From positions 62,001 through 126,000 of the forward strand of contig PGZZ01000003.1 of NCBI GenBank assembly GCA_002841545.1: a stretch of DNA of 64,000 bases, read 5' to 3'. Position numbers and translations under genes: made by a program. Below, in pieces: positions 50,375-64,000 of this stretch; positions within the stretch are counted from its first letter, which is position 1, and each line of letters begins with the position of its first letter. Below the pieces are notes generated by a model, which saw only the letters and a list, made by a program, of their open reading frames with translations, made no database searches and had not been told where the DNA came from. This DNA is from Firmicutes bacterium HGW-Firmicutes-16 (GTDB lineage: Bacteria > Bacillota > Clostridia > Oscillospirales > Oscillospiraceae).

Positions 50375-50818
50375 TTATGGTGCAATACCCTGTTTGTCGG
50401 CGCACAAAATACCTAGAGCATCCAGATATCCCTCAAGTCCGCGTCCTTTTATCGTGGCAATGCAAGCAGAACGGATATAGGAGACTTTTCGGAAATTTTC
50501 TCGCTTATCGGGGTCTGATATGTGCACCTCCACGGCAGGAATTCCAACGGCTTTTACCGCGTCAAGCAAGGCTATACTCGTGTGAGTGTAAGCCGCCGGA
50601 TTGATAATGATGCCTTCGAATGTGCCGTATGCTCCCTGAATAGCGTCCACCAGCGCTCCCTCGTGATTCGACTGAAAGAACTCCACCGAAACGCCGAGCT
50701 TATCCGCTTCCCCGCAAAGCATTGACTTAAGGTCCTCATAAGTTCGGCTTCCGTAAAGCTCGGGTTCACGAACACCCAGCATATTTATATTAGGCCCGTT
50801 TATCACTAATATTTTCAT
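50375..50818 (-). CDS. aroQ: 3-dehydroquinate dehydratase, type II
   Basis: A 147-residue enzyme making 3-dehydroshikimate from 3-dehydroquinate. It shows MKILVINGPNINMLGVREPE, the flexible-loop Tyr in LYGSRTYEDLK, EFFQSNHEGALVDAIQ, INPAAYTHTSIALLDA and VEVHISDPDKRENFRKVSYI, all typical of AroQ. The ATG at 50818 has GGAGGG upstream and lies within the aroE-aroK gene's end (29-nt overlap). Last gene of the aromatic operon. Confidence 0.97.
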   Translation of the reverse strand: MKILVINGPNINMLGVREPELYGSRTYEDLKSMLCGEADKLGVSVEFFQSNHEGALVDAIQGAYGTFEGIIINPAAYTHTSIALLDAVKAVGIPAVEVHISDPDKRENFRKVSYIRSACIATIKGRGLEGYLDALGILCADKQGIAP

Positions 50819-52043
50819 TAAATTCCCTCCAGATAACTGCTGCGGTGTCTTCAGGTGTGAGACGGGTTTCAACACAGACGTCGCGGAAGCGTAGATAAGC
50901 CGTAAGCCGCTCGCTGTACATTTCCGAAAGATTGGTTCCTTGTGACAGCGGCCGCCCATCTCGCGAAAGCAGCGACAAGTCCCGCTCAAGATAATAGACA
51001 CGTCCGTTTTGGCGCAGCGGAATATAGTTGCGTTCGTCTTTTACAGCGCCGCCGCCGACAGAGATGATTTTTCCGGTCAACAGTCCTAGCTTCGCAATCA
51101 TTTCGCGCTCAAGCTCTCGAAATCCATCTTCGCCATTTTTTGCAAAAATGTCGGATATTGTACAGCCGGTAATTTTCTCGATTTCCGCGTCTGTATCTAT
51201 CAGGTCTCTTCCCGTAATCTTTGCCAAAGCGGCGCCGACTGTGCTTTTTCCGCATCCCGGCATACCGATAAGAACGATATTGTCAGTTTCACGGCGAAGC
51301 TTTTCGTATGTTTTCAAATTCTCGGAGTCGTCTATGTTGATGCCGAAAAACAGTTCTTCCGCAGCCTTGGCCTGAGCGACCAGCATTGGTAGTCCGTTAA
51401 TGTTCGAAATTCCAAGCTCATCCGCCTGCATAAGAAACGCTGTGCGCGCCGGATTGAAAATAAGCTCAATCGCACCTTCGCATTTTGTGAAAACATGTAA
51501 ATCAACAGGAGCTCTGCCGACCGCTGGATACATGCCGACAGGAGTTGCGTTTACAACTATCTCGGCGTTGCTGTGCCTGTTCAAATTATCGTAGTTGTTC
51601 TCGCCATTTCTGGAAACGACGACGACTTCTGATGCGCCAAGCTTTTTTGCCACATACGCAACTGTAAGCGACGCGCCGCCGCTGCCGAGTACCACTGTTT
51701 TCTTTCCCTTGAAGTCAATACCAGACAGTTTGACCTGAAACTCAAAGCCATAGGCGTCGGTGTTGAAGCCGTATAGCAAACCGTCAGACTTGCGGACTAT
51801 GGTGTTTACGCTGCCAATAGCCTGCGCAACGGGTGACAAAACGTCGCAGTATTTCATTACCTCTAGCTTGTATGGAATAGTCACATTTAGTCCGCCGATA
51901 TCGTCCCGACGGAAGAAATCGTCCAGTTGCTCGGGCTCAAGTTCAAAGAGGCTGTAGTTGCAGTTTCCGAGCTCGCGGTGGATCGCAACGGAATAGCTGT
52001 GACCCAGCTTTCTGCCGATTAGGCCATAAAGTCTATCTTCCAT
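50790..52043 (-). CDS. Bifunctional shikimate dehydrogenase / shikimate kinase
   Basis: A 417-residue fusion. Residues 1-245 are AroE: YGLIGRKLGHSYSVAIHREL, NVTIPYKLEVM (catalytic Lys59), YGFNTDAYGF (Asp96), NAD(P) loop VVLGSGGAS. Residues ~253-417 are AroK: Walker A IGMPGCGKST (260-268 region), DTDAEIE, SVGGGAV and the lid RDGRPLSQ. It performs reduction of 3-dehydroshikimate and phosphorylation of shikimate in one chain. The GSGGAS loop lacks the usual following R (GAGGAxRA), which may alter NADPH preference. Lies 2 bp after pheA. Confidence 0.95.
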   Translation of the reverse strand: MEDRLYGLIGRKLGHSYSVAIHRELGNCNYSLFELEPEQLDDFFRRDDIGGLNVTIPYKLEVMKYCDVLSPVAQAIGSVNTIVRKSDGLLYGFNTDAYGFEFQVKLSGIDFKGKKTVVLGSGGASLTVAYVAKKLGASEVVVVSRNGENNYDNLNRHSNAEIVVNATPVGMYPAVGRAPVDLHVFTKCEGAIELIFNPARTAFLMQADELGISNINGLPMLVAQAKAAEELFFGINIDDSENLKTYEKLRRETDNIVLIGMPGCGKSTVGAALAKITGRDLIDTDAEIEKITGCTISDIFAKNGEDGFRELEREMIAKLGLLTGKIISVGGGAVKDERNYIPLRQNGRVYYLERDLSLLSRDGRPLSQGTNLSEMYSERLTAYLRFRDVCVETRLTPEDTAAVIWREFNENISDKRA

Positions 52044-52045
52044 AT

Positions 52046-53182
52046 TTACACTTCTTCATAATTCCCGAGAAATACGAAGGTTTCACAGCTGCGCTCAAGA
52101 TCCTCCAGCATTGACATGACAAGCGGTTCGCGCACGGATGCGTCGAGATCCAGGAAGAAAACAAACTCAAAATTTCGACCTGAGACAGGACAGCTTTCCA
52201 GCTTGTTCATATTAATCCCGAGGATTGCCGGCTTTGATATTATATCATATAGTGCTCCCGGCTTGTTGTCGCAGACAAATATCATGCTAAGTTTGTTTGC
52301 GCCATCGTAAATCTTAGGCTCTTTTGTGATACAAATAAAACGTGTATAGTTATTTTCACTGTCCTGCACGGAGTCGGATACGACAGTTAGTCCGTACAGC
52401 TCGGCGCAGGCGTGTGAAGAAAGGGCCGCAATGTGAGGATTATTTGATTCGGAAATCATTTTTGCGGCCAAAGCGGTGTTCCCACAGGGAATGACCTTGA
52501 CATCTTTGAGGGAAGAAAGGAATTTACCGCACTGATTTATAGCCTGCTCGTGCGAATAGATTTCTTTGATGTCTGAGAGCGCAGCTCCGGGCTTTGCCAG
52601 AAGCTCGTGACGGATACACAGCTTTGTGCTGCGCACAACAGAAAAATTCCTGTTCTGAAGCAGTTTGTATATCGACCGAACAGAGCCGCTTGAGCTGTTC
52701 TCTATTGGAAGAACGCCGAATGCGCACAGACCGGAATCAACCGCGTCAAAAACCGCTTCAAAGGTCTTTACATACACGATATTTGCTCGTGTAAGCAGCT
52801 TCTCGCAAGCAGCCTGAGAGTTTGAACCCTCAATGCCCTGACAGGCAACGGTACCGCTGCGGGGAAAAACCGCTTCGCTGGCTGAGAGGGCCCGCTCAAT
52901 CTGCGTCCTTACATTTGACGATACGGAGAGAAGTTCGTTTTGGCGGGACTTGGAAAGCTTGAACAAGGTGGAAAAAAGGTTAAATGCGTAAGGCTCCATA
53001 TTCCCGGATTTCTCCGAGACTTTAGCCAGAATTTCCCGCTCCCGCTCTCTGTCAAATGTCGGGAGACCGAGATTTTTTTTGGCTGCGCCCATCTCGTCGG
53101 CCAGCTCCATTCTTTTTAGAAAAAGTGACAGCATACTGTCGTCGACCTCGTCGATTTGTTTTCTGATTTCAGTTTTATCCAT
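52046..53182 (-). CDS. pheA: Bifunctional chorismate mutase / prephenate dehydratase
   Basis: A 378-residue P-protein. Residues 1-~85 are an AroQ-type chorismate mutase (KTEIRKQIDEVDDSMLSLFL, REREREILAKV). Prephenate dehydratase follows from ~105 (VACQGIEGSNSQAACEKL, GVLPIENSSSGSVRSIYKLL, HEQAINQCGKFL, NNYTRFICI). A C-terminal ACT domain (~290-370) has GALYDIISKPAILGINMNKL and then ESCP in place of the usual ESRP phenylalanine-binding motif, so feedback inhibition may differ. The ATG at 53182 has GAGGAGG upstream. Confidence 0.95.
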   Translation of the reverse strand: MDKTEIRKQIDEVDDSMLSLFLKRMELADEMGAAKKNLGLPTFDREREREILAKVSEKSGNMEPYAFNLFSTLFKLSKSRQNELLSVSSNVRTQIERALSASEAVFPRSGTVACQGIEGSNSQAACEKLLTRANIVYVKTFEAVFDAVDSGLCAFGVLPIENSSSGSVRSIYKLLQNRNFSVVRSTKLCIRHELLAKPGAALSDIKEIYSHEQAINQCGKFLSSLKDVKVIPCGNTALAAKMISESNNPHIAALSSHACAELYGLTVVSDSVQDSENNYTRFICITKEPKIYDGANKLSMIFVCDNKPGALYDIISKPAILGINMNKLESCPVSGRNFEFVFFLDLDASVREPLVMSMLEDLERSCETFVFLGNYEEV

Positions 53183-53183
53183 A

Positions 53184-54269
53184 TCACATGCCCTCCTCAA
53201 GCAATAAATCCAAAATAACAATGGCAGTCACAGCTTCTAGCACCGGAACCGCACGGTGAGCGATGCAGGGATCATGCCGTCCTTTGATTACAATCTGCGT
53301 CTGTTCCATTCGTGACAAGCTTACCGTTTTTTGTTCGCGCCCGATGGACGGTGTCGGCTTGATTGCAACACGGAATACCAAGGGCATTGAGTTTGATATA
53401 CCGCCAAGAATTCCCCCGCTGTTGTTGGTTTCCGTGGCAATAGCGCCGCGTTCGTCAATGCAGAACGGGTCGTTGCATTCCGAGCCTTTCATAGCGGTAC
53501 AGGCAAAGCCTGCGCCAAATTCGATGCCCTTTACAGCAGGAATTCCGAAAACTGTGGCGGCAATTCGGTTTTCAATACCATCGAACATAGGCTCGCCCAG
53601 TCCGACCGGTAAGCCGACAGCGGCACATTCAATAGTTCCGCCAACAGAATCGGACGATGCAGCCGCCTCCAATATAGCTTCCTGCATCAATCGTCCCTTC
53701 TCATCTTCGATGACAGGAAAGGCTTTGAGGGCGATTTCGTCAAAGAGCTGTTTTTCCGGTCGGAGCGGGAACAAAGAGTCGGAAACGGTACCCACAGAGG
53801 CGAGATGTGCTCCGATAAATATACCGCGACGGTTAAGAATTTGTTTTGCGATACCGCCCGCTATGCAGAGCGGAGCGGTCATACGACCGGAAAAATGTCC
53901 GCCGCCGCGCATATCAGCCGCCCCTCCCCACTTCACACGGGCTGTGTAGTCCGCATGGGATGGACGAGGAGTATCGTAAAGCTCGAAATAGTCTGCGGAA
54001 CGGGTATCATTATTTTCAATTATTGCGCAGAGCGGGCTTGCGCAGGTTAATCCGTCATGGAGTCCCGAAAGAAAAATCGGCACGTCCGTCTCGCGCCTTG
54101 CGGATGAAACTGCGTCTTTTCCCGGACGGCGCCGTTCCATGAAGCGCATGAGCTCTTCCATATCGATTGGCTCTCCTGACGGAAGCCCGTCAATGTTCAC
54201 GCCGATTGCTTTGCCATGTGACTGTCCGAAAACCGAAATCTTAAGGCGTTTTCCTATTTCAGATGACAT
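53184..54269 (-). CDS. aroC: Chorismate synthase
   Basis: A 361-residue FMN-dependent lyase making chorismate from EPSP. Family segments present: ISVFGQSHGKAIGVNIDGLP, RRRPGKDAVSSARRETD, RPSHADYTARVKWG, DMRGGGHFSGRMTAPLCIAG, IGAHLASVG, TNNSGGILGGISNSMPLVFR and RHDPCIAHRAVPVLEAVTAI. Overlaps the end of aroA by 11 nt; 1 nt before pheA. Confidence 0.98.
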   Translation of the reverse strand: MSSEIGKRLKISVFGQSHGKAIGVNIDGLPSGEPIDMEELMRFMERRRPGKDAVSSARRETDVPIFLSGLHDGLTCASPLCAIIENNDTRSADYFELYDTPRPSHADYTARVKWGGAADMRGGGHFSGRMTAPLCIAGGIAKQILNRRGIFIGAHLASVGTVSDSLFPLRPEKQLFDEIALKAFPVIEDEKGRLMQEAILEAAASSDSVGGTIECAAVGLPVGLGEPMFDGIENRIAATVFGIPAVKGIEFGAGFACTAMKGSECNDPFCIDERGAIATETNNSGGILGGISNSMPLVFRVAIKPTPSIGREQKTVSLSRMEQTQIVIKGRHDPCIAHRAVPVLEAVTAIVILDLLLEEGM

Positions 54270-55512
54270 CCGCTTTGCCTCCCAGTTTCACATAGTCGCT
54301 GAAAAAAGCTGGGTGCGACTTGTTTACGGCCTCCGCTCCTGTAATGGTAACCGGACCGGAGCAAGCGCTGCCGGCGATAGCCGCCGCCATTGCGATCCTG
54401 TGGTCGTTAAAGCTGGATACGGTTCCGCCGGAAAGGGCTCCGCCGAAGACCGTCAGAGCGTCTGAGTACGCTTGCGCTTTGCCGCCCATCGCATTAATCA
54501 TCGAGGCGGTTGAAGCGAGCCTGTCACTTTCTTTATACCTTAAATGTGCACCGTTCACGAAGTTCGTCTCACCTTCCGCATATGCCGCGACAACTGAAAG
54601 CGCGGGCAGAAGATCAGGCACTTCGGACAGATCGATTTCGCAGCCGCGAAGCCTACCCGGTTTAACCGTGAACTGCGTTCCTTCGGACGAAACCTCCGCT
54701 CCGAATCGTTGCAGCAGAGCGACGATGGCCTTATCTCCCTGAGGCGAACTCGAATCCAGGCCCGTTACCGTCACCGGAACTCCAATGGCTCCTGCCGCGA
54801 GGAAAAACGCGGCATTGGACCAGTCACCGTCCACCGATAGACGTTCGGGAGAGCGGAATTTATTGCTTCCGGATATTTGATATTCGTTTTCGGAGCGTTT
54901 TACCTTAACACCGAAACGCTCAAGGGCTAAAAGAGTAATATCAACATATGCGGAAGAAACAAGTTTTGACGATAATTTAATCGAGCTGTCCTCCTCCAAA
55001 GAAGGCAGGGCCAGCAAAAGACCGGTGAGGTACTGAGAGCTGACGCCGCCTGAAATGATGAATTCTCCTCCGGTTAGTCTGCCGTTCATTTCATAAGGAA
55101 GTTTATCCGAACTAAATGAAACGCCGTGCCGCTTCATAGCGTCAGAAAGCTCCGTTATCGGTCTCTCAGGTAAGCGCCCGCCGCCCGTAAAGCTGACATG
55201 CTCACAGAGCGCCGCGGCTACCGGAAGCATGAATCGGAGAGTAGAGCCGCTCTCGCGGCAGTCTAAAACTGGATTTTCGGGAACTTCTCCGATTGGCGTT
55301 ATAGTGACGGTGTCATCCTCTCTTTCAATAACCGCGCCCAGAGCTTTAAGAGCGCCTATCGTCGCATCTATATCGTCCGAGGAGGAAGGAAGAACCAAAG
55401 AGGTCGGCTTATCTGCCAGTGCCGCACAGATGAGAAGGCGGTGCGCCACAGACTTTGAAGGAATCGACGAAACGCTGCCCGACAGCTTTGACGGAGTAAC
55501 AATAACATCCAT
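54259..55512 (-). CDS. aroA: 3-phosphoshikimate 1-carboxyvinyltransferase (EPSP synthase)
   Basis: A 417-residue two-domain enzyme joining shikimate 3-phosphate and phosphoenolpyruvate. It shows PSKSVAHRLLICAALA (Lys20, Ser21), LDCRESGSTLRFMLPVAAAL, RLPERPITELSDAMKRHGV, GGVSSQYLTGLLLALP, LSVDGDWSNAAFFLAAGAIG, LRYKESDRLASTASMINAMG and SFNDHRIAMAAAIAG. The usual GNAGT loop reads ESGST, as in the class II-like EPSP synthases. Its ATG shares one base with the aroB stop. Confidence 0.97.
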   Translation of the reverse strand: MDVIVTPSKLSGSVSSIPSKSVAHRLLICAALADKPTSLVLPSSSDDIDATIGALKALGAVIEREDDTVTITPIGEVPENPVLDCRESGSTLRFMLPVAAALCEHVSFTGGGRLPERPITELSDAMKRHGVSFSSDKLPYEMNGRLTGGEFIISGGVSSQYLTGLLLALPSLEEDSSIKLSSKLVSSAYVDITLLALERFGVKVKRSENEYQISGSNKFRSPERLSVDGDWSNAAFFLAAGAIGVPVTVTGLDSSSPQGDKAIVALLQRFGAEVSSEGTQFTVKPGRLRGCEIDLSEVPDLLPALSVVAAYAEGETNFVNGAHLRYKESDRLASTASMINAMGGKAQAYSDALTVFGGALSGGTVSSFNDHRIAMAAAIAGSACSGPVTITGAEAVNKSHPAFFSDYVKLGGKADVI

Positions 55513-56579
55513 TATCGTTCCTCCAATCCCGCTTTAATTACGGAATTCAGCTCCGTGACGGGAATCGTTTTCAGATAACAAGAGCCGATGCCGCCCGGAA
55601 TGACCAAAGTTATTTCGTCTCCCGCGCGTTTTTTATCCGAAAGCGCGGCGGCGGTAAGCTCCTCCGCCGAAAAATCTGTATGAACGGTAAGCCCGTTTCT
55701 AATAAGAGCTTTTTCGATTCGCGGGGCAACAGGAGGATCGCTGAGCCCGAGTCTGTCCGCGGCGCGGGCGATAACCGCCATTCCTACGGCTACTGCGTGT
55801 CCGTGAGATATGGTGTAGTTGCTGCATTTCTCTATTGCATGACCAATAGTGTGACCGAGATTGAGCGTTTTGCGAAGCCCGTTTTCAAACTGATCGGTCT
55901 CCACGATACTACCCTTGAAGGCGACGCAGGTTTCAATAATTTTAGTCAGAGACGATTTGACGTCCCCGTTTTCAAAAAGGGAAAACAGCTGCTCGCCTGA
56001 AAGAATTCCGGTCTTGATTGCCTCAGCCGCACCGTCGGAAAAAACTTCGCCGGGAAGCTGTTCTAGGCAGTCGGTATCGCAAACGACAGCTTCAGGCTGA
56101 ATAAACATACCTGCCAGATTCTTGCCGACTCTTAGGTCAACGCCTGTTTTTCCTCCGACTGATGAATCAACAGCCGCTAGAAAGGTGGTTGGAATCTGCA
56201 CGTATCTTATTCCTCGAAGGTAACATCCGGCGGCAAAGCCTGCAATGTCGCCCACAACCCCGCCGCCCAGAGCAATCACGCAGTCTGTCCGGGTTAGGTG
56301 GTTTTCCGCGAGAAATTCAAGGATAGCGGAAAGCGTTTCAATCGTTTTCGACTGTTCGCCCGCAGGAAAGGAGAAAGCGCAAACGGTAAAACCTGCGTTT
56401 CTGAGGCTCTCCGCAACAGTCACGAGGAAAAGCTTTTCAACAGTCGAGTCGGTTATTATGGCTGCACGGCAGGGCTTGACGGCTTTTACTATGAGCTCGC
56501 CGCAGGAGCCAAGAAGGTTTTTCCCGATAGAAACGTCATAGCCTTTTCCAACGCTAATACGAACAGATTTAATTTCCAC
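55512..56579 (-). CDS. aroB: 3-dehydroquinate synthase
   Basis: A 355-residue NAD- and metal-dependent cyclase. Family segments: FPAGEQSKTIETLSAILEFL, DCVIALGGGVVGDIAGFAAG, GIRYVQIPTTFLAAVDSSVG, GKTGVDLRVGKNLAGMF, DGAAEAIKTGILSGEQLF, RKTLNLGHTIGHAIEKCSNY with the metal His residues, and SHGHAVAVGMA. Lies 1 bp after tyrA and abuts aroA. Confidence 0.98.
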   Translation of the reverse strand: MEIKSVRISVGKGYDVSIGKNLLGSCGELIVKAVKPCRAAIITDSTVEKLFLVTVAESLRNAGFTVCAFSFPAGEQSKTIETLSAILEFLAENHLTRTDCVIALGGGVVGDIAGFAAGCYLRGIRYVQIPTTFLAAVDSSVGGKTGVDLRVGKNLAGMFIQPEAVVCDTDCLEQLPGEVFSDGAAEAIKTGILSGEQLFSLFENGDVKSSLTKIIETCVAFKGSIVETDQFENGLRKTLNLGHTIGHAIEKCSNYTISHGHAVAVGMAVIARAADRLGLSDPPVAPRIEKALIRNGLTVHTDFSAEELTAAALSDKKRAGDEITLVIPGGIGSCYLKTIPVTELNSVIKAGLEER

Positions 56580-56580
56580 G

Positions 56581-57417
56581 CTAATTACCTCCTGCGGCGG
56601 TTTTCTTCTCCCTGCCGTCCCTCAGCAGAGCGCAGAGTTTTTCGGCATCATCTTTTCGCAGAGCTTCAAGATATTCATTCAAATGGTTGATTAATATATC
56701 AAGCTGATCTGTAAGATAGTCAGAGTTTGCCATCATCAGCTCCGTCCACATGTCTTCGTCCAGACGAGCCACACGTGTCATATCCTTGAAGCTGCCTGCG
56801 GAAAAGCCTCTCCTAAGCAGAGCATCCGGTGATCTGATGTAGGCGCTGGAGGTCAGATGAGCCAGCTGGGAGGTATAAGCGATTACCCTGTCATGCTCGT
56901 CAGGAGTTGTAAAGGTCAGTCCTGAAAAGCCGATGTCGGTAAAAAAGACCTTAAGCTTTTCCAACATGTTCATGTCGGTCTTTTCGTCGGGAGTCAGTAT
57001 CATAGGCGCGCCTGCAAAAAGATCGTCGGAAGAATTGACAAAGCCTCCGCGCTCCTTGCCAGCCATGGGATGCCCGCCGATATAAGAAAACCCGAATTGT
57101 TCAGCGAGAGGCGTGAGCTCTGAGCAGACAGCGCGTTTTATTCCGCACATATCCACAAGGATAGCTCGAGGCGAAATGCTTAAACCGTGTTCTTTGACCC
57201 AATCTATCGTTGATTTCGGACGAATGGCCGCGAGTATTAGGTCGCATTCGCCCAGATTATCGTCAGTCAACAGCTCGTCAATCGCGCCGCAGAGCCTTGC
57301 AAACATGATTGCTTCAGGATTGAGGTCAGTAGCGGCAACGGTGTACTGAGTTCGGGATTTTATGCTTTTTGCTAGAGAGCCGCCTATTAGTCCGAGGCCG
57401 ACGATGCCGATTTTCAT
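56581..57417 (-). CDS. tyrA: Prephenate dehydrogenase
   Basis: A 278-residue enzyme making 4-hydroxyphenylpyruvate for tyrosine. NAD loop IGIVGLGLIGGSLAKSIKS, then ATDLNPEAIMFARLCGAIDE, VDMCGIKRAVCSELTP, YIGGHPMAGKERGGFVNSSD (catalytic His and substrate-binding residues), and YTSQLAHLTSSAY. No C-terminal ACT domain, so control probably lies with transcription and DAHP synthase. Two bp after the DAHP synthase gene. Confidence 0.95.
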   Translation of the reverse strand: MKIGIVGLGLIGGSLAKSIKSRTQYTVAATDLNPEAIMFARLCGAIDELLTDDNLGECDLILAAIRPKSTIDWVKEHGLSISPRAILVDMCGIKRAVCSELTPLAEQFGFSYIGGHPMAGKERGGFVNSSDDLFAGAPMILTPDEKTDMNMLEKLKVFFTDIGFSGLTFTTPDEHDRVIAYTSQLAHLTSSAYIRSPDALLRRGFSAGSFKDMTRVARLDEDMWTELMMANSDYLTDQLDILINHLNEYLEALRKDDAEKLCALLRDGREKKTAAGGN

Positions 57418-57419
57418 GC

Positions 57420-58433
57420 CTAGTCCTCCTGTGCCTTGATAAATTGATGCAGAGCAAAGAGCCTTTTTGCAAGCTTATCGAAGGCTTCCGGTCTAAGTGA
57501 CTGTTTGCCGTCGCAAAGAGCGTGTTCGGGATCGTTATGCACTTCAATAATAAGCCCGTCAACACCACAGCCTACAGCCGCGTTTGAAAGCGGAGCCACG
57601 AGAGCCGCGTCGCCCGCGGAATGACTCGGATCGACTACAATTGGAAGGTGGGTGAGTCGGCGAAGAACAGGAATAGCGGAAATATCAAGAGTGTTGCGGG
57701 TGTATGTCTCAAAAGTCCGGATTCCGCGTTCGCAGAGAATGACGTTTTTATTGCCGCCAGCCATGACGTATTCGGCGCTCATGAGCCACTCCTCATAGGT
57801 GGTTGACATTCCGCGCTTAATCATTACGGGCTTATCCTGTGTGCCCAGAACCTTCAGAAGGTTAAAATTCTGAATATTTCGAGCTCCGACCTGAATGACG
57901 TCAACATCGTCGAATAAGGGTAGCTGCGAAATGTCCATAATTTCGGTAACTATTGGAAGACCTGTCTCCTTCTTTGCGAGAGAGAGAAGGCGAAGACCGT
58001 CATCCCCGAGACCTTGAAAGGCATATGGTGAGGTTCTGGGCTTGAATGCGCCGCCGCGCAGCATTGTCGCGCCGCTGGCTTTAACCGCCTTTGCGACGGC
58101 AACAATCTGCTCCTCCGTCTCGACCGAGCAGGGACCTGCCATGAGCGTCAGATTACCGCCGCCGATTGACGTGTTCCCGATGGTTATAACAGTATCGTCG
58201 GGGTGAAATTTCCGATTTGCATTTTTGTAAGGTTCCTGAACGCGCTTAACGTTATCAACGATGTCAAGGGCAGAAATAAGGTCTGTATCAAGAGTGGCCG
58301 TGTCGCCAACAAGCCCGAGAATGATACGGGAAGTCCCTTCGGAGATGTGCACCTGCAGCCCTTTATCCTCAAGCCACAGCAACAGGCTTTCAAGCTGGCT
58401 TTTATTCGGTTTTTCTTTCAGTACTATAATCAT
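57420..58433 (-). CDS. aroF: 3-deoxy-7-phosphoheptulonate (DAHP) synthase, class I beta type
   Basis: A 337-residue enzyme, the entry step of the pathway. Residues 1-~75 are the N-terminal ferredoxin-like regulatory domain (MIIVLKEKPNKSQLESLLLW), as in Thermotoga-type DAHP synthases inhibited by Tyr or Phe. The barrel shows LMAGPCSVETEEQIVAVAKA, LRGGAFKPRTSPYAFQGLG, VMIKRGMSTTYEEWLMSAEY, ILCERGIRTFETYTRNTLDI and PIVVDPSHSAGDAALVAPLS. AAGGGG precedes the ATG at 58433. First enzyme gene after the attenuator leader. Confidence 0.96.
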   Translation of the reverse strand: MIIVLKEKPNKSQLESLLLWLEDKGLQVHISEGTSRIILGLVGDTATLDTDLISALDIVDNVKRVQEPYKNANRKFHPDDTVITIGNTSIGGGNLTLMAGPCSVETEEQIVAVAKAVKASGATMLRGGAFKPRTSPYAFQGLGDDGLRLLSLAKKETGLPIVTEIMDISQLPLFDDVDVIQVGARNIQNFNLLKVLGTQDKPVMIKRGMSTTYEEWLMSAEYVMAGGNKNVILCERGIRTFETYTRNTLDISAIPVLRRLTHLPIVVDPSHSAGDAALVAPLSNAAVGCGVDGLIIEVHNDPEHALCDGKQSLRPEAFDKLAKRLFALHQFIKAQED

Positions 58434-58472: not shown

Positions 58473-58497
58473 GCCCGCAGTCGGTTTGACTGCGGGC
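58473..58497 (-). terminator. Attenuator terminator hairpin before the DAHP synthase gene
   Basis: GCCCGCAGTC (58473-58482) pairs perfectly with GACTGCGGGC (58488-58497), with a 5-nt loop; on the minus strand CTTTTGC follows. It lies between the Phe/Tyr leader peptide (ends 58526) and the DAHP synthase start (58433), exactly where an attenuator terminator is expected. The T-run is short. Confidence 0.75.
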
Positions 58498-58504
58498 TTA
58501 AACA

Positions 58505-58531
58505 CAATGAATTGGAATTAGGCTTTCATTG
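58505..58531 (-). other. Leader hairpin overlapping the leader-peptide stop codon
   Basis: CAATGAA (58505-58511) pairs with TTCATTG (58525-58531). It overlaps the stop codon of the leader peptide, so a ribosome at the end of the peptide would melt it. Confidence 0.5.
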
Positions 58532-58630
58532 CAAATCGCACGTTTTTGTCAAACCGAAATAAGCTTTACCAAAAAAATAATAGGTAAAGCTAAAGAAACG
58601 ATATTCAGCTGTGTAAATAGTGTTCGACAT
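58526..58630 (-). CDS. Phe/Tyr-rich leader peptide of the aromatic operon
   Basis: A 34-codon frame from an ATG at 58630 with GGAG 7 nt upstream. Its core RFFSFTYYFFGKAYFG holds six Phe and three Tyr in 16 residues, with two more Tyr just before it. It ends ~90 bp before the DAHP synthase gene and is followed by terminator-like hairpins. By analogy with PheL-type leaders, ribosome stalling when charged tRNA-Phe or tRNA-Tyr is scarce would prevent termination and switch on the operon that makes both amino acids. An in-frame ATG lies further upstream (58738), but the 58630 start has the ribosome site. Confidence 0.85.
   Translation of the reverse strand: MSNTIYTAEYRFFSFTYYFFGKAYFGLTKTCDLQ
58562..58591 (-). 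other. Leader hairpin inside the Phe/Tyr codons
   Basis: AGCTTTACC (58562-58570) pairs perfectly with GGTAAAGCT (58583-58591). It lies within the run of Phe/Tyr codons, the position of the pause hairpin in classic amino-acid attenuators. Confidence 0.55.
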
Positions 58631-58702
58631 AAATGTACTCCATTTTGAATAAAAGCGCAAATTGTTTTTATCAACATACCATGAAACAAATAATAAAGAA
58701 AG

Positions 58703-58784
58703 TGGAGAATAATACAAACTTACGAGGATAGTATGCACAGAACTTGTGCATATATATCTGCAAGGACGCCTCTATTATTCTCCA
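58703..58784. repeat. Nested inverted repeats between the aromatic and MMSDH loci
   Basis: The outer arms TGGAGAATAATA (58703-58714) and TATTATTCTCCA (58773-58784) are perfect complements. Inside them TATGCACA (58732-58739) and TGTGCATA (58745-58752) form a second perfect repeat with a 5-nt loop. The 82-bp unit could be a small mobile-element-like repeat, a double operator, or an RNA structure. No gene lies in it. Confidence 0.6.
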
Positions 58785-58878
58785 TCTTCCCTATTTTTAT
58801 AAATGTCAGACACTTTTCGATGCAACTATTTAATGTCGATAAGATATTCATGCCGTCAATCGACCAAGTGAAGCGGAT

Positions 58879-60399
58879 TTATGAGCCGCCGATCGACCCG
58901 TCCCATGTGTCGATTTTGGTATTTTTTATTTTGTTATCGTCAAACCATTTTGTAGTTACGGCTTTCGTTTCTGTGAAGAAACGGAGGCCGTCTTTTCCGA
59001 GGACGTGCAAGTCGCCGAAAAAGGACTGCTTGTGTCCGGTGAACGGGAATATGCTGACGGGCACGGGAATGCCGACATTTACTCCGACCATTCCGCCATG
59101 AGTGCGGGCGGCAAATTCGCGTGCGTAGTAGCCGCTGCTTGTATATATGACGGAGCCGTTGGCAAAGCAGTTTTTGTTCATCAGCTCTAAGCCCTCTTCA
59201 AAGCCGCGCACCCGCTTAATGCACAGTACCGGTCCGAAGACCTCCTCGTCGCCTATGCTCATTTCGGGAGTAACGTGGTCAAATATTGTGGGGCCCAGAT
59301 AAAAGCCCGATTCAAAGTCCTTAACAATTGTATTTCTGCCGTCCAAAACGAGCGTTGCGCCCTCGTCCTCGCCCTTTTTTATCCAGTCAAGCACGGATTT
59401 CCTGTGCGCCGCCGTAACGAGGGGCCCAAGCGAGCTTGTTTTGTCGTATGCCGGACCAATTACGAGTTCCGAAGCAAATTTGACGAGATATTGCAGCAAT
59501 TTATCAGCTATGCTTTCCTGAGCCACAATTGCTGGCAGCGCCATGCAGCGCTCTCCCGCGCAGCCGAAGGCAGAGTTGATGATGCCGCGCGCGGCTTGCT
59601 CCAAGGATGCGTCCTCAAGGACAAGGGCGTGGTTCTTCGCCTCGCAAAGCGCCTGTACACGCTTGCCGCTTGCCGCCGCTTTTGAGTATATATGCAGACC
59701 CACGGAAGTAGAGCCGACGAAGCTCACGCCTTTTACGTCGGGGTGCTCAAGGAAGATTTCTGCTTCGTTTCTGCTGCAGGTAACTATATTTAAAACACCG
59801 TCAGGCAGCCCGGCCTCAATAAACAGTTCCGCGCAGCGCATGGCGGTCATTGGTGTCATGGAAGCGGCTTTAATCACAAGAGTATTTCCCGCTGCGATAC
59901 AGAGCGGAGCCATCCAGCCCATAGGTATCATGCCGGGAAAGTTGAAAGGCACAATGCCTGCAAACACGCCCACGGGCTCACGGTATAAAACCGTGTCGTA
60001 GCCGTCGGAGGTGTTCATGAGCGCCTCACCCAGCATTAGGCTCGGCGTACCGCAGGCGAATTCGACTGCCTCCCTGACCTTCAATATGTCACCCTTTGCC
60101 TCGCTCCATACCTTTCCGTGTTCTCGAGCGACCAGCATAGTCAGCTCGTCCATGTGCTTCTCCAACAGAGCACGGAAGTTATACAGCACCTGAACGCGCC
60201 GCATAACCGGAGTTCCTGACCATGCCGGAAACGAATTCTTCGCGGCAGAAATCGCGCTCCGCACTTCATCTTTTGTGCAGCATGGCGTTTGAGCTATGAT
60301 TTCACCAAGGCTTGGGTCGAAAATATCCATGTACTTTTCCGCTTTTGAGTCAATCCATTCTCCGTTAATTAGACACTTAAGTCTTTGTATTTCACTCAT
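58879..60399 (-). CDS. Methylmalonate-semialdehyde dehydrogenase (CoA-acylating)
   Basis: A 506-residue aldehyde dehydrogenase of the MmsA/IolA group, which turns methylmalonate or malonate semialdehyde into propionyl- or acetyl-CoA with NAD+. It shows FNFPGMIPMGWMAPLCIAAG, GVSFVGSTSVGLHIY, LCEAKNHALVLEDA (Asn where most ALDHs use other residues) and FGCAGERCMALPA with catalytic Cys285. The ATG at 60399 has AAAGGAGTG upstream and overlaps the symporter gene by 8 nt. Last gene of the right-hand catabolic operon. A role in inositol- or polyol-like breakdown is inferred. Confidence 0.93.
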   Translation of the reverse strand: MSEIQRLKCLINGEWIDSKAEKYMDIFDPSLGEIIAQTPCCTKDEVRSAISAAKNSFPAWSGTPVMRRVQVLYNFRALLEKHMDELTMLVAREHGKVWSEAKGDILKVREAVEFACGTPSLMLGEALMNTSDGYDTVLYREPVGVFAGIVPFNFPGMIPMGWMAPLCIAAGNTLVIKAASMTPMTAMRCAELFIEAGLPDGVLNIVTCSRNEAEIFLEHPDVKGVSFVGSTSVGLHIYSKAAASGKRVQALCEAKNHALVLEDASLEQAARGIINSAFGCAGERCMALPAIVAQESIADKLLQYLVKFASELVIGPAYDKTSSLGPLVTAAHRKSVLDWIKKGEDEGATLVLDGRNTIVKDFESGFYLGPTIFDHVTPEMSIGDEEVFGPVLCIKRVRGFEEGLELMNKNCFANGSVIYTSSGYYAREFAARTHGGMVGVNVGIPVPVSIFPFTGHKQSFFGDLHVLGKDGLRFFTETKAVTTKWFDDNKIKNTKIDTWDGSIGGS

Positions 60400-61909
60400 G
60401 TGTAACACTCCTTTGCTTTTGGCTGATGCCGCCCCAAAGTCCGGCTTTCTCCGTGCCGGCGGCAATTAGAACATCTTCAAGTTCCTCCGGGGTCATACTA
60501 TCCAGCGTTCCGCCTTCTTTGAACGCGGCAACGCCTTTGAGCACCGCGTCAAATCTGCGCTTGTTTGTTTTATTGCGCTGTGCAAAAATGATGCAAGTCG
60601 TCAGCAAAACAAACGGTATAATAATGAACATCCACTTGATTCCCAAAACCACACCGCTCTGGGCGTAGGACGCTGGGTTAAAGTCGACGGTACTGGCTTT
60701 TAAGAGGGAGTACTCGTTTTGGTCAAAGCCCATTGCCCTCAGGCCATATCCGAGGAGAAGAACGGCGACGCCGCTGGCAAACTTGCGTAAAAAGGTCGTC
60801 AGGCCGCTATATATGCCTTCCCTGCGTTTACCGGTTCGTATTTCGTCAATGTCAAAAATGTCAGTCAGAAGAGACCATGTTGCCAGATTTCCCGCTGCGG
60901 AGCCGACTGCAATCAGTGCGGCCAGAATGAACAGGACGAAAACTGGCGTGCTCGCGTCTATCCAGATAAAAGCAAGAATTGAAAGAAGCCACGTCGGAAT
61001 GCCGATAAAGAGCGGGAATACTTTGCCTTTCTTTTTTGCTACCGATCCCATTACCACCATGAGGATAACTGAGCAAACGAGCATGGTTCCGACTATCATC
61101 TCGTAGCTTTCATATTTCAAAACTACAATGTCAATATAGAAAATAAACAGCGCAAGGACTAAGTCAACCGCAATCTGGAAGGACAGAAAGATGCCCAGAA
61201 AATTTCTGTACGCTGGGTTTGAGAAGACGGACGCATAGCTTTTAAGTTTAATATTCTCAACCGGCGGGAGGTTTTCCTGCTCTCGTGTCCCAAGAAACGT
61301 AATCAGCCAGCTGATGCCAAAGATTACACCCATCGCAATTGCCATGATGAGGTATCCGATTCTCTGCTCAGGGCCGTTCTCGCTTCCGCCGGCGGACTTT
61401 ATTATGATTCCTGGCACGACCGCCGCAATAAGCGAAGCTCCTCCTGAAAACACCATGCGCATTGTGGTAAAGCTCGTGCGCTCGTTATAGTCGGAGGTGA
61501 TATCTGAAAGTATGGCGTTATAGGGTATCATTACGATGGTGAACGCCGTCCCGAAGAACATGTACGCAAATACATAATATACGACTTTGGCTGTGACGCT
61601 CTCCAAGCCGAAGGAATAAAAGAGCATGACAAAGGACAGGAAAACCGGCACAATTCCTATCAGGAAAAAAATGCGACGCCGTCCGAAGCGCGTGCGGGTT
61701 CTGTCTGAAAGGGATCCAACTATGGGGTCGGTGATTGCGTCCCAAAGCTTGCCGATGAAAATGATGAGGGTAGCTGAGACAACAGGCAGGCCCTCCACCA
61801 ACACCAGAAAGTTCATAAACAGCAGACTGAAAACCATAAAGGCTCCACCGCCGTATATATCGCCGCAGGCATAGCTGAGCTTTTCCTTGAGCCGTCCTTT
61901 CATAAACAT
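60392..61909 (-). CDS. GPH-family sugar:cation symporter (MelB-like)
   Basis: A 505-residue carrier with twelve membrane segments and GPH features: LKEKLSYACGDIYGGGAF, GKLWDAITDPIVGSLSDRTR, TRFGRRRIFFLIG, MIPYNAILSDITSDYNERTS. The C-terminal tail (~50 residues) is cytoplasmic and acidic (MTPEELEDVLIAAGTEKAG). AAGGA lies upstream of two close ATGs (61909, 61903). It likely brings in a pentose, hexuronide or polyol used by the surrounding enzymes. Confidence 0.92.
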   Translation of the reverse strand: MFMKGRLKEKLSYACGDIYGGGAFMVFSLLFMNFLVLVEGLPVVSATLIIFIGKLWDAITDPIVGSLSDRTRTRFGRRRIFFLIGIVPVFLSFVMLFYSFGLESVTAKVVYYVFAYMFFGTAFTIVMIPYNAILSDITSDYNERTSFTTMRMVFSGGASLIAAVVPGIIIKSAGGSENGPEQRIGYLIMAIAMGVIFGISWLITFLGTREQENLPPVENIKLKSYASVFSNPAYRNFLGIFLSFQIAVDLVLALFIFYIDIVVLKYESYEMIVGTMLVCSVILMVVMGSVAKKKGKVFPLFIGIPTWLLSILAFIWIDASTPVFVLFILAALIAVGSAAGNLATWSLLTDIFDIDEIRTGKRREGIYSGLTTFLRKFASGVAVLLLGYGLRAMGFDQNEYSLLKASTVDFNPASYAQSGVVLGIKWMFIIIPFVLLTTCIIFAQRNKTNKRRFDAVLKGVAAFKEGGTLDSMTPEELEDVLIAAGTEKAGLWGGISQKQRSVTHE

Positions 61910-61919
61910 GCCATCCTTT

Positions 61920-62651
61920 CTAATTAATGATACTTGCCGCGGTTTTTAGCATAAGTGGGATAATCCGCTCTATCTTCTCTTGAGTCATCCGGCTCATTGC
62001 ACCGGACGCGCCAAGCGAATACCGACATGTGCCTTTCTCGTCTAGGATGGGAACGGCCACACACCTGACATGCTCGCTGAGCTCGCCGTTATCTATGGCC
62101 CAGCCCTGCGCACGGACGCGCTCAAGCTCAGAGTTAAACTCCTCGGCGCTGCAAATTGTCTTGTCTGTATGTGCCTCATAGGTGATGCCGGATAACATCT
62201 TTGCCCTATCTTCCTCAAGCGCAAACGCCACAAGGCACTTTCCGACAGCCGAGCAGTACAGCGGCTCAATGTCCCCGATTTTGGCGTTGACGACTAGGCG
62301 CGAATCAGACATGGTCTGCTCGATTACGACCGCTTTGCTATTCGCGCACACACAAAGATGCACGGATTCGCGGATTTCCACTGCGAGGCGGTCCATCAAG
62401 GGCTTTGCCGCGTCTATGACGCTGTAGTTCTTATAATACTGCTCGGAAAGCTTCAAAATAGCGGGGCCGAGCTTGTATTTCTGCGTGTGTTTTGCCTTTT
62501 CTACCATGTTGGCCTCAAGGAAAGTGTCGAGAATACGAAACGCGGTGCTCTTGTTTATATCCAATGCCTGGGCTAGCTCAGTTACGCCCACGCTCTTGCG
62601 CGAAGCCAGAAACAGCAGGGCTTCTATGCCCTTTTTCAGCGATTGGCTCAT
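61920..62651 (-). CDS. IclR-family transcriptional regulator
   Basis: A 243-residue regulator. The N-terminal winged helix has SVGVTELAQALDINKSTAFR and ILDTFLEANMVEKA, and the effector domain has IRESVHLCVCANSKAVVIEQ, YCSAVGKCLVAFALEEDRAK and GWAIDNGELSEHVRCVAVPI. It is inside the catabolic operon (10 bp before the symporter), so it probably controls that operon. Confidence 0.94.
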   Translation of the reverse strand: MSQSLKKGIEALLFLASRKSVGVTELAQALDINKSTAFRILDTFLEANMVEKAKHTQKYKLGPAILKLSEQYYKNYSVIDAAKPLMDRLAVEIRESVHLCVCANSKAVVIEQTMSDSRLVVNAKIGDIEPLYCSAVGKCLVAFALEEDRAKMLSGITYEAHTDKTICSAEEFNSELERVRAQGWAIDNGELSEHVRCVAVPILDEKGTCRYSLGASGAMSRMTQEKIERIIPLMLKTAASIIN

Positions 62652-62661
62652 AGCGCCCTCC

Positions 62662-63282
62662 TTATCTGTTCAGGATAATGTCCCTGATCTCCCCTTCGCT
62701 CCCGTAACTGCTTATAAAATCAGTAAAGGCTTTGTGACTGAGTACCGTTTCGAGAGTGCTTTTGTCGAGTCTCTCCAGAATGGAGGCAAAATCCATATGC
62801 GTTGTCCTACTGATGTCCTCCAAAAGCTTTCGGCTCTCCTGCTGGCTTTTGCTACGGTGCGGTGGATAGCCGCGGCCAGCTTCGTCGCAAAAAAGCTTTT
62901 CAAAGATATATTTAAGATTAATGTCAGCGGCCCAGCCAAAGCCCTTGTTCAGCGCCAGCGAGACGCAATTGCCGCCGTTTATCTGCGAAAACAGCCAAGC
63001 GTCCACAGGGTCGATAATAAGTCCGCAAAATACCTTCGGATACTGCATGACGGACATAAGAAAGCCCAGCCCCGTGCCGCAGCCGCCAATGACAAAGTCC
63101 GCCGCGCCCGTTTCCAGCGCGAGCGCCGCCATAAGGCCGGTGTGGATATATGTAAGCTCCGGCTCAAGGGTCCCGTCGGCCATGCCGATATTAAAAACCT
63201 CCGTGTTAATCTCCCGCAGGGCTTCGAGTATAAATGCGTTTTTATCCCTCGCGGAAACCTCACTAATGACGGCTATTCTCAT
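62662..63282 (-). CDS. RpiB/LacA/LacB-like sugar-phosphate isomerase
   Basis: A 206-residue protein. The first ~150 residues follow the RpiB fold: MRIAVISEVSARDKNAFILE, TGAADFVIGGCGTGLGFLMS (active-site loop), INGGNCVSLALNKGFGWAAD, with about 55 extra C-terminal residues. It is divergent from housekeeping RpiB and resembles isomerases found in polyol/sugar loci. It overlaps the end of the transketolase gene by 20 nt. The substrate is likely a pentose or tetrose phosphate. Confidence 0.85.
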   Translation of the reverse strand: MRIAVISEVSARDKNAFILEALREINTEVFNIGMADGTLEPELTYIHTGLMAALALETGAADFVIGGCGTGLGFLMSVMQYPKVFCGLIIDPVDAWLFSQINGGNCVSLALNKGFGWAADINLKYIFEKLFCDEAGRGYPPHRSKSQQESRKLLEDISRTTHMDFASILERLDKSTLETVLSHKAFTDFISSYGSEGEIRDIILNR

Positions 63283-64000
63283 TTTTCCTCCTTATGCACT
63301 TCTCGGCTTTTTCAGCTATATCGCGCGCAGTCAGATGAAAGCGCTCCTGTAAATAGTCCTGTGTGCCGACTTCGCCGAAGCTTTCAAAAACTGCCACGCG
63401 CTCAAGTGGCACGGGGTATTTTTCCGAAAGTACTTCAGAAACGGCGCTTCCCAACCCGCCGATGGCATTGTGGTTTTCCGCCGTCACAACCGCGCCGCAA
63501 TTCTGTGCGGCTTTGACAATGGCTTCCTCGTCCAGCGGCTTTATGGTGTGCATGTCGAGCACTGCCGCCGAAATCCCCTTTTCCAGGAGCATTTCGCGCG
63601 CACGAAGTGCCTCGAGCACCATAATTCCGCAGGCTACTATTGCGACATCGCAGCCTTCTTCAAGCAAGTTTGCCTTGCCTATAGTGAATTTCGCGCTGTC
63701 ACTGTATATGCGCGTGACCTTGCGGCGGCTTGAGCGCATGTAGAATACGCCGTATGTATCTGCCATAAGTTTAACCGCCGTTTCATACATGGCGGTGTCA
63801 GCGGGCTCGATCACTGTTGCGCCGGGTACGGCGCGCATCAAGGCCATATCCTCAAAGGGCATGTGCGTGCCGCCGTTTGCCGTCGCGGTAACGCCCGCGT
63901 CTCCGCCTATGATTTTCACGTTGAGCTTTTGATATGCGCAGGAAATGAAAATTTGGTCGAAAACGCGCCGTGTGGCAAATGTGCCGAACGCATGAAAAAA
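63263..64000 (-). CDS. Transketolase, C-terminal subunit (start beyond the window)
   Basis: The frame is open from the right edge (64000) to its stop, 245 codons. It begins mid-domain with FFHAFGTFATRRVFDQIFIS and KLNVKIIGGDAGVTATANGG, then GATVIEPADTAMYETAVKLM, VAIVACGIMVLEALRAREML, VLDMHTIKPLDEEAIVKAAQ and AENHNAIGGLGSAVSEVL. This is the pyrimidine-binding and C-terminal part of a two-subunit transketolase. The thiamine-pyrophosphate subunit is probably just outside the window. It suggests the operon's substrate enters the pentose phosphate pool. Confidence 0.93.
   Translation of the reverse strand, partial: FFHAFGTFATRRVFDQIFISCAYQKLNVKIIGGDAGVTATANGGTHMPFEDMALMRAVPGATVIEPADTAMYETAVKLMADTYGVFYMRSSRRKVTRIYSDSAKFTIGKANLLEEGCDVAIVACGIMVLEALRAREMLLEKGISAAVLDMHTIKPLDEEAIVKAAQNCGAVVTAENHNAIGGLGSAVSEVLSEKYPVPLERVAVFESFGEVGTQDYLQERFHLTARDIAEKAEKCIRRKNENSRH

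Follow-up and report, generated by a model that had tools for sequence, protein, structure and literature searches.

On the minus strand of the window (the whole stretch of DNA that was analysed, 64,000 nucleotides from Firmicutes bacterium HGW-Firmicutes-16) lies a cluster of eight genes for aromatic amino acid biosynthesis. The first structural gene encodes a DAHP synthase (57420-58433), which has a PF00793 domain and an N-terminal PF18152 domain. It is followed by tyrA (prephenate dehydrogenase, 56581-57417), aroB (55512-56579), aroA (EPSP synthase, 54259-55512), aroC (53184-54269), pheA (chorismate mutase-prephenate dehydratase, listed frame 52046-53221, with the true start probably inside it), an aroE-aroK fusion (50790-52043) and aroQ (type II dehydroquinase, listed frame 50375-51001, with the true start probably at about 50815). 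The eight genes, inferred to form one transcript, make up the full Phe and Tyr set from the common pathway, and both tyrA and pheA are present. The TrpE family (PF04715) had no match in the genome of the window, which was one of 30 without a match among the 39 genomes searched, and it was matched in all 14 control genomes. Provided that the genome is complete in this respect, the operon therefore probably supplies Phe and Tyr and not Trp. The genomes without a PF04715 match may belong to tryptophan auxotrophs, or may be incomplete.

The DAHP synthase gene is preceded on the same strand by a short leader frame (58526-58630), identified by its translation, ribosome site, aromatic ranking and alignment. 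The frame consists of 34 codons plus a TGA stop codon, and the translation of 58630-58526 is MSNTIYTAEYRFFSFTYYFFGKAYFGLTKTCDLQ. A ribosome-binding site, GGAG (58638-58641, minus strand), is located 7 nt before the ATG, and its stop codon is followed by 92 nt before the DAHP synthase ATG (58433) is reached. The peptide core, RFFSFTYYFFGKAYFG, contains nine aromatic residues out of 16, and the best 16-residue stretch of the leader contains 10. The aromatic codons are Tyr6, Tyr10, Phe12-13, Phe15, Tyr17-18, Phe19-20 and Tyr24-Phe25; there are no Trp codons, which agrees with the missing TrpE. When the 420 frames of 12-60 aa that are preceded by a ribosome-binding site on either strand of the window were ranked by aromatic residues, the leader came out on top with 10 per 16, the runner-up reaching 7. 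An earlier interpretation made without database searches (the sequence-only reading) had described a 34-codon frame with its own ribosome site, a core with nine aromatic residues out of 16 and a frame end about 90 bp before the DAHP synthase gene, and all three statements held. A promoter consensus scan gave sites no more numerous than in shuffled sequence, and no promoter was assigned.

Two features were observed further upstream. An inverted repeat with 26-nt arms (58689-58714 and 58773-58798), 81% complementary and 58 nt apart, lies between the leader and an aldehyde dehydrogenase gene; no convincing second copy of it was found in the same genome. The aldehyde dehydrogenase gene belongs to a gene set at 58879-63919, on the same strand as the operon, that also includes an MFS sugar transporter, an IclR regulator, an RpiB-like isomerase and the C-terminal part of a transketolase. 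This set resembles, possibly, a sugar or polyol catabolic cluster.

Conservation of the leader frame

DAHP synthase was searched in 98 genomes, including that of the window, and was present in 76; the upstream DNA of 90 loci was examined. Wherever the upstream DNA was 450 nt or longer (86 loci), frames preceded by a ribosome-binding site were scored, with paralogues counted separately and the locus of the window included. A frame with at least six aromatic residues per 16 was present upstream of DAHP synthase at 63 of the 86 loci and 23 fell below this threshold. The chance level was 2.4% in dinucleotide shuffles, and the reverse strand gave 1/86.

A set of named loci consisted of the best 80 of 569 confirmed ones, many of them from Oscillibacter, Dysosmobacter or Oscillospiraceae. 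The aromatic filter was passed by 76 of the 80, one of them (L116) with the wrong frame, and a leader was present in 79/80 after L116, L091, L098 and L104 had been judged by eye. For one locus of this set (L158) the upstream DNA was only 200 nt long. In Oscillibacter valericigenes Sjm18-20 the leader is located at about AP012044.1:3570149-3570247. The strict ribosome-site filter missed the true leaders of L091/L002, L098, L104, L116 and L036, which were recognised by eye. A class-level sample of Clostridia gave a frame with at least six aromatic residues per 16 at 59/88 loci (18/28 best-matching and 41/60 further ones), with 29/88 below. This count has no chance level of its own and not all lower-scoring DAHP synthase matches were included; one locus (L247) repeats L050, and both L247 and L279 belong to the order of the window.

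For alignment, 110 loci were reduced by 21 (duplicates, loci with no frame found and loci with no GK-like motif) to 89 of the leader type of the window. From these, 42 rows were picked by hand, with near-duplicates thinned and poorly alignable types omitted, leaving out 47. The start codon was ATG in 41 of the 42 rows and GTG in the remaining one. Seven core columns were 74-100% aromatic, and in six of the seven Phe and Tyr exchange for one another. Synonymous changes, which the sequence-only reading had proposed as a check, were mildly enriched in the leader frame, at 19%, compared with 8% and 16% for the two alternative frames. This is a weakly positive result, and the enrichment is weak because RNA pairing also constrains the sequence.

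The nearest relative (L091, the same contig stretch as L002) has a T-run indel in the aromatic core, approximately 210-95 nt upstream of DAHP synthase. The indel shifts the frame after YRYFSFTYYF, while region 2 and the terminator (described below) are kept. An assembly error may account for it; alternatively, the tail of the peptide may be unimportant.

Terminator, antiterminator and core hairpin

The terminator plus antiterminator region of the window, on which the sequence-only reading was silent, spans 58557-58463 on the minus strand, and all elements described below lie on this strand. An intrinsic terminator, GCCCGCAGUC-AAACC-GACUGCGGGC followed by CUUUUG (58473-58497), sits between the leader and DAHP synthase and is supported by pairing changes in the alignment. 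Region 3, GUCAAACCGA (58481-58490), comprises the end of the terminator 5' arm, the loop and the first bases of the 3' arm. It pairs with region 2, UCGGUUUGAC (58548-58557), which lies within the leader ORF at codons 25-28, and this pairing is the antiterminator. A core hairpin with the 5' arm AGCUUUACC (58583-58591) and the 3' arm GGUAAAGCU (58562-58570) holds the Tyr-Tyr-Phe-Phe codons in its loop. A candidate region 1, GUCGAAC (58622-58628), begins with the G of the start codon and, in the minimum-energy fold, is base-paired to region 2. Relatives have CAGCUGAAUACCG as region 1, and the window seems to have GUCGAAC in its place.

In the 42-row alignment 96.8% of the terminator (3:4) cells were paired, with two-sided changes in 8/9 pairs. 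For the core hairpin around the aromatic codons (AGCUUUACC/GGUAAGGCU) the values were 98.4% and 5/9 pairs, and for the antiterminator, in which the leader sequence CGGUUUGGCUG pairs with CAGCCRAACCG of the terminator, 92.1% and 5/11 pairs. The number of two-sided pairs was matched by 0/500 shuffles for both the terminator and the core hairpin and by 10/500 for the antiterminator. The anti-antiterminator (1:2) had 81.3% of cells paired, more than all 500 shuffles; its 3 two-sided pairs were not above chance, since 322/500 shuffles reached them.

Tests on single loci gave a mixed outcome. The terminator rule of the script identified a terminator at 61/68 loci with a leader. It missed that of the window, which was found by a separate scan, and the locus of the window was consequently absent from the complementarity test. 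Complementarity between leader and terminator exceeded that of shuffles (p<=0.05) at 31/61 loci and failed to do so at 30/61. A hairpin within the leader beat codon-order shuffles (p<=0.05) at 33/68 loci, the window included, and failed at 35/68. Examples from this second test are Tyr-branch leaders with the hairpin CCGCUAUU/AAUAGCGG and KVKV-type leaders, which have stems with ACUUUUAC/GUAAAAGU; subfamilies other than that of the window thus follow a similar plan with sequences of their own. Neither test was corrected for shared ancestry. For an antiterminator using either terminator arm, 9/10 Tyr-branch leaders failed at p 0.05, the exception being L041; L032 and L033 gave complementarity p values of 0.086 and 0.066. 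An antiterminator that excludes the terminator is thus supported for the subfamily of the window and not demonstrated for Tyr-branch leaders.

Modelled effect of ribosome position

A folding model was applied to six sequences. The ribosome was placed at each codon and the RNA downstream of it folded to the end of region 3, assuming a 12-nt downstream footprint and ignoring the RNA upstream of the ribosome. For the window the modelled probability of the 2:3 pairing was 0.98 with A-site codons 2-21, 0.89 at codon 22, 0.51 at codon 23 and 0 from codon 24 onward. With A-site codons 10-20 it was at least 0.95 in 6/6 sequences, and in the other five a value of about 0.9 fell to less than 0.3 over codons 21 to 24. 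The probability was also low at codons 2-3 in L010 and reduced at codons 2-4 in L105. The main aromatic run (codons 10-20) stops just short of the modelled switch point; Tyr24-Phe25 lie too far downstream, and a stall there would not help according to the model. The model predicts that a stall at the control codons frees region 2 and that later ribosome positions cover it. In the absence of a ribosome, modelled 2:3 pairing was low in 4/6 sequences (0.07 in the window) and high in two (L003 and L006), in which the antiterminator would form on the free RNA with no ribosome present.

Leader codons and operon content

Leader codon usage was compared with the content of the downstream operon at 60 long loci plus the window, 20 of the 60 having been added after their leaders were known. 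Fifty loci were classed and 11 set aside: nine had no frame with at least five aromatic residues per 16, and two (L220 and L230) had no recognised downstream genes. The median Tyr share, Y/(F+Y), was 0.75 for operons with only DAHP synthase and TyrA (n=12, range 0.33-1.0), 0.41 for joint operons with TyrA and AroB (n=20, prephenate dehydratase in 18) and 0.27 for operons with DAHP synthase and AroB and without TyrA (n=18, prephenate dehydratase in 16, the remaining two stopping at contig ends). One-sided Mann-Whitney tests, uncorrected for ancestry, gave p values of 8e-6 for Tyr over Phe operons, 5e-5 for Tyr over joint and 4e-4 for joint over Phe. Nine genomes had both split operon types with leaders. 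The leader of the TyrA operon was the Tyr-richer one in eight of them (e.g., Tyr shares of 1.0 vs 0.17 and 0.83 vs 0), and the ninth (G059), whose Tyr-branch leader is doubtful, was a tie. The Tyr share tracks the operon class, and the choice of codons therefore corresponds to the amino acid that the operon makes.

The Phe-branch leaders L049, L061, L062, L066, L063 and L070 have in common a W(A/T)RF...G motif that contains a single Trp codon. Trp sensing by the conserved Trp codon of such GWARF-type leaders was suspected at first and is not excluded. A short GCUGG/CCGGC hairpin surrounds this codon in some leaders; it is not above shuffles there.

Searches for T-box, TRAP and other known leaders

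At the gathering threshold no Rfam family was found in the window or at 20 DAHP synthase loci, that of the window included. A relaxed threshold gave 8 matches, all far below gathering scores and none to a family named as an amino-acid leader peptide. The T-box family (RF00230) was detected at 1/50 DAHP synthase loci tested, among them that of the window. This single case is a distant relative (L321) without a frame of six aromatic residues per 16. The identical search detected T-boxes before trpE at 3/10 loci (L263 in genome G005, L265 in G002 and L266 in G065), and no convincing W-rich leader was found before trpE at the 10 loci. In all three genomes aromatic leaders precede DAHP synthase (L022 and L031 in G005, L014 in G002 and L012 in G065). 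Control therefore appears to be split in these genomes, with T-boxes serving Trp and leader peptides serving Phe and Tyr. On the trpE contig of G005 a further DAHP synthase gene without an aromatic leader (L087/L185) was noted approximately 3.4 kb away; in this genome the Phe, Tyr and Trp branches may each own a DAHP synthase. TRAP-controlled leaders carry series of (G/U)AG triplets. In the 307 nt upstream of the DAHP synthase of the window only 2 such triplets were found, and they do not form a series.

Proposed mechanism and alternative explanations

We consider it very likely (probability about 0.9) that the leader controls transcription by ribosome-mediated attenuation, with charged tRNA-Phe and charged tRNA-Tyr as the signals sensed, a reading made without expression, ribosome-profiling or termination data. 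Sequence comparison supports it by a conserved frame with a ribosome site, aromatic codons, a core hairpin, an antiterminator, a terminator and the match between codons and operon content. In the proposed mechanism, the leader would be transcribed by RNA polymerase with a ribosome close behind. If Phe or Tyr is short, the ribosome would stall in the aromatic run at codons 10-20, and region 2 (codons 25-28) would remain free and pair with the emerging region 3. No terminator would then form and the eight-gene shikimate/Phe/Tyr operon would be transcribed. If both amino acids are plentiful, the ribosome would move over region 2, regions 3 and 4 would pair, and transcription would end ahead of DAHP synthase. 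Translation, stalling, termination and the starvation response in the cell are all inferred.

The sequence-only reading had proposed a Phe/Tyr leader peptide of an aromatic operon. This is supported, with translation, stalling and the starvation response still a matter of inference. Its further proposal of a joint Phe and Tyr sensor is supported by the presence of tyrA and pheA in the operon, by the exchange of Phe and Tyr in the alignment columns and by the branch-specific leaders. Two findings that, by its own account, would have refuted it were not made: the small aromatic frame is conserved at this place in relatives, and no T-box was matched there by a search that works at trpE.

Four alternative explanations were considered. 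The first is that the frame encodes a functional small protein, such as a hydrophobic membrane peptide, unrelated to attenuation. Short aromatic-rich frames can be membrane peptides, and the GKAYFGLAE tail is conserved in many of the named relatives. Against this, the subfamilies have very different peptides apart from the aromatic positions, the conserved residues fall on RNA-paired bases, and the leader composition tracks the downstream genes. In L091/L002, moreover, the frame changes after the aromatic codons, yet region 2 and the terminator stay. We regard this explanation as very improbable.

The second is arrest by the nascent peptide, in which the peptide in the exit tunnel would sense free Phe or Tyr, instead of ribosomes stalling for lack of charged tRNA. 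TnaC senses Trp as a peptide in the exit tunnel. Such arrest likewise depends on translation of a leader and on a switch downstream of it, and sequence alone cannot exclude it. However, the families differ greatly in peptide sequence, which is not the case for arrest peptides, and a biosynthetic operon has to be induced when its product is scarce and not when it is in excess. This explanation, too, has very little in its favour.

The third is that the operon is under the control of a T-box, TRAP or another riboswitch, with the small frame present only incidentally. T-box and TRAP control are the known rule for aromatic operons in Firmicutes, and a T-box does precede DAHP synthase in L321 and trpE in three relatives. 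However, the window has no Rfam match and no (G/U)AG series, the T-box was limited to one of the 50 DAHP synthase loci, and pairing ties the terminator to the leader, which leaves almost no room for this explanation. The fourth, that the leader passes ribosomes on by re-initiation and so raises DAHP synthase translation (a hypothesis of PMC4833913, which states that bacterial leader genes are abundant), can practically be ruled out, as the distance peak in Firmicutes is 15-16 bp (PMC4833913) against 92 nt and a terminator here, and as it leaves the aromatic codons unexplained.

The attenuator reading can be extended beyond the window. In a bolder form, leader-peptide attenuation would be common and old for DAHP synthase operons across Clostridia, and the codons would co-evolve with gene content, joint operons reading Phe and Tyr together and split operons reading them separately. 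The subfamilies would have rebuilt their RNA on one plan, with the aromatic codons in a hairpin upstream of the switch. We lean towards this form, with clearly less confidence than in the reading of the window itself. It would carry a textbook mechanism over to a large part of the Firmicutes, for which T-box control is the expectation, and would place it at the entry enzyme of the aromatic pathway. The joint, Phe-rich and Tyr-rich leaders constitute a natural experiment on how sensor specificity is rewritten when operons split. The attenuator reading also explains small F/Y-rich frames that are otherwise annotated as hypothetical or missed, and the leader could be used to assign a DAHP synthase paralogue to a branch of the pathway.

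Comparison with known systems

Leader-peptide attenuation is classic in Proteobacteria, and the enterobacterial pheL and trpL attenuators have control codons in the leader and 1:2, 2:3 and 3:4 hairpins. The system described here resembles them in having a leader with codons for the product, a terminator, a competing antiterminator and a stall-dependent switch point, the last from modelling. It differs in that the leader of the window matches no Rfam leader family, a single leader reads both Phe and Tyr, region 2 is located within the ORF ahead of the stop codon, and the operon comprises the whole shikimate/Phe/Tyr set. T-box leaders (RF00230) likewise sense the supply of charged tRNA by transcription antitermination. 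A T-box, however, binds the tRNA directly and involves no peptide, and no RF00230 match was found here.

A related prediction is the uORFC-13-1 motif upstream of aroF in Acholeplasma, in which a uORF containing one or more Phe codons precedes a terminator (PMC8632094). Both systems have a uORF with Phe codons, followed by a terminator and a DAHP synthase gene. However, uORFC-13-1 is limited to Acholeplasma and environmental sequences of unknown organism, with 24 representatives (PMC8632094), and the relevant section of that paper describes neither Tyr sensing nor a split of the operon nor a spread across a whole class. Within Firmicutes, His leader peptides have been proposed before hisS*/hisZ in bacilli and before hisZ in C. 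difficile (PMC2965389, PMC4833913). They share with the present leaders the control by a leader peptide in place of a T-box and differ in the amino acid, histidine, and in the genes.

For the Tyr branch, a Tyr-tRNA attenuation hypothesis exists for E. coli aroF-tyrA (Camakaris 1980, as cited in PMC8632094 and PMC2659441), and Shewanella aroF has been tabulated with an 'attenuator sensing tyr-tRNA' (PMC2659441). As in the E. coli hypothesis, a DAHP synthase-TyrA operon would be under the control of Tyr-tRNA supply, which we propose for the Tyr-branch leaders. The E. coli case remains a hypothesis only; no Tyr-rich leader is described in the sections of PMC8632094 and PMC2659441 that bear on it, and the motif of PMC8632094 is said to differ from that 5' UTR. 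To our knowledge no Tyr-specific attenuator has been demonstrated, though proposals exist. Attenuators with a terminator and antiterminator have been predicted at tyrA clusters in, e.g., Thermoanaerobacter, Streptococcus and Enterococcus (PMC1173090). There, as here, attenuation is proposed for aromatic supraoperons that make Phe and Tyr; the term leader peptide is absent from that text. A 2005 paper assigned attenuator control to phenylalanine operons and T-box control to tyrosine operons in other bacteria and reported no aminoacyl-tRNA-synthetase gene of Firmicutes under classical attenuation (PMC1262725).

A partial literature search revealed no paper whose title concerns aromatic leader peptides in Clostridia, and an earlier prediction (Lopatovskaya 2010, Panina 2003) is not excluded. 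Nor was a widespread joint Phe and Tyr sensor with branch-specific versions found in that literature. The class of mechanism is a known one, and what appears to be new is the taxon, the joint reading of Phe and Tyr and the existence of branch-specific versions.
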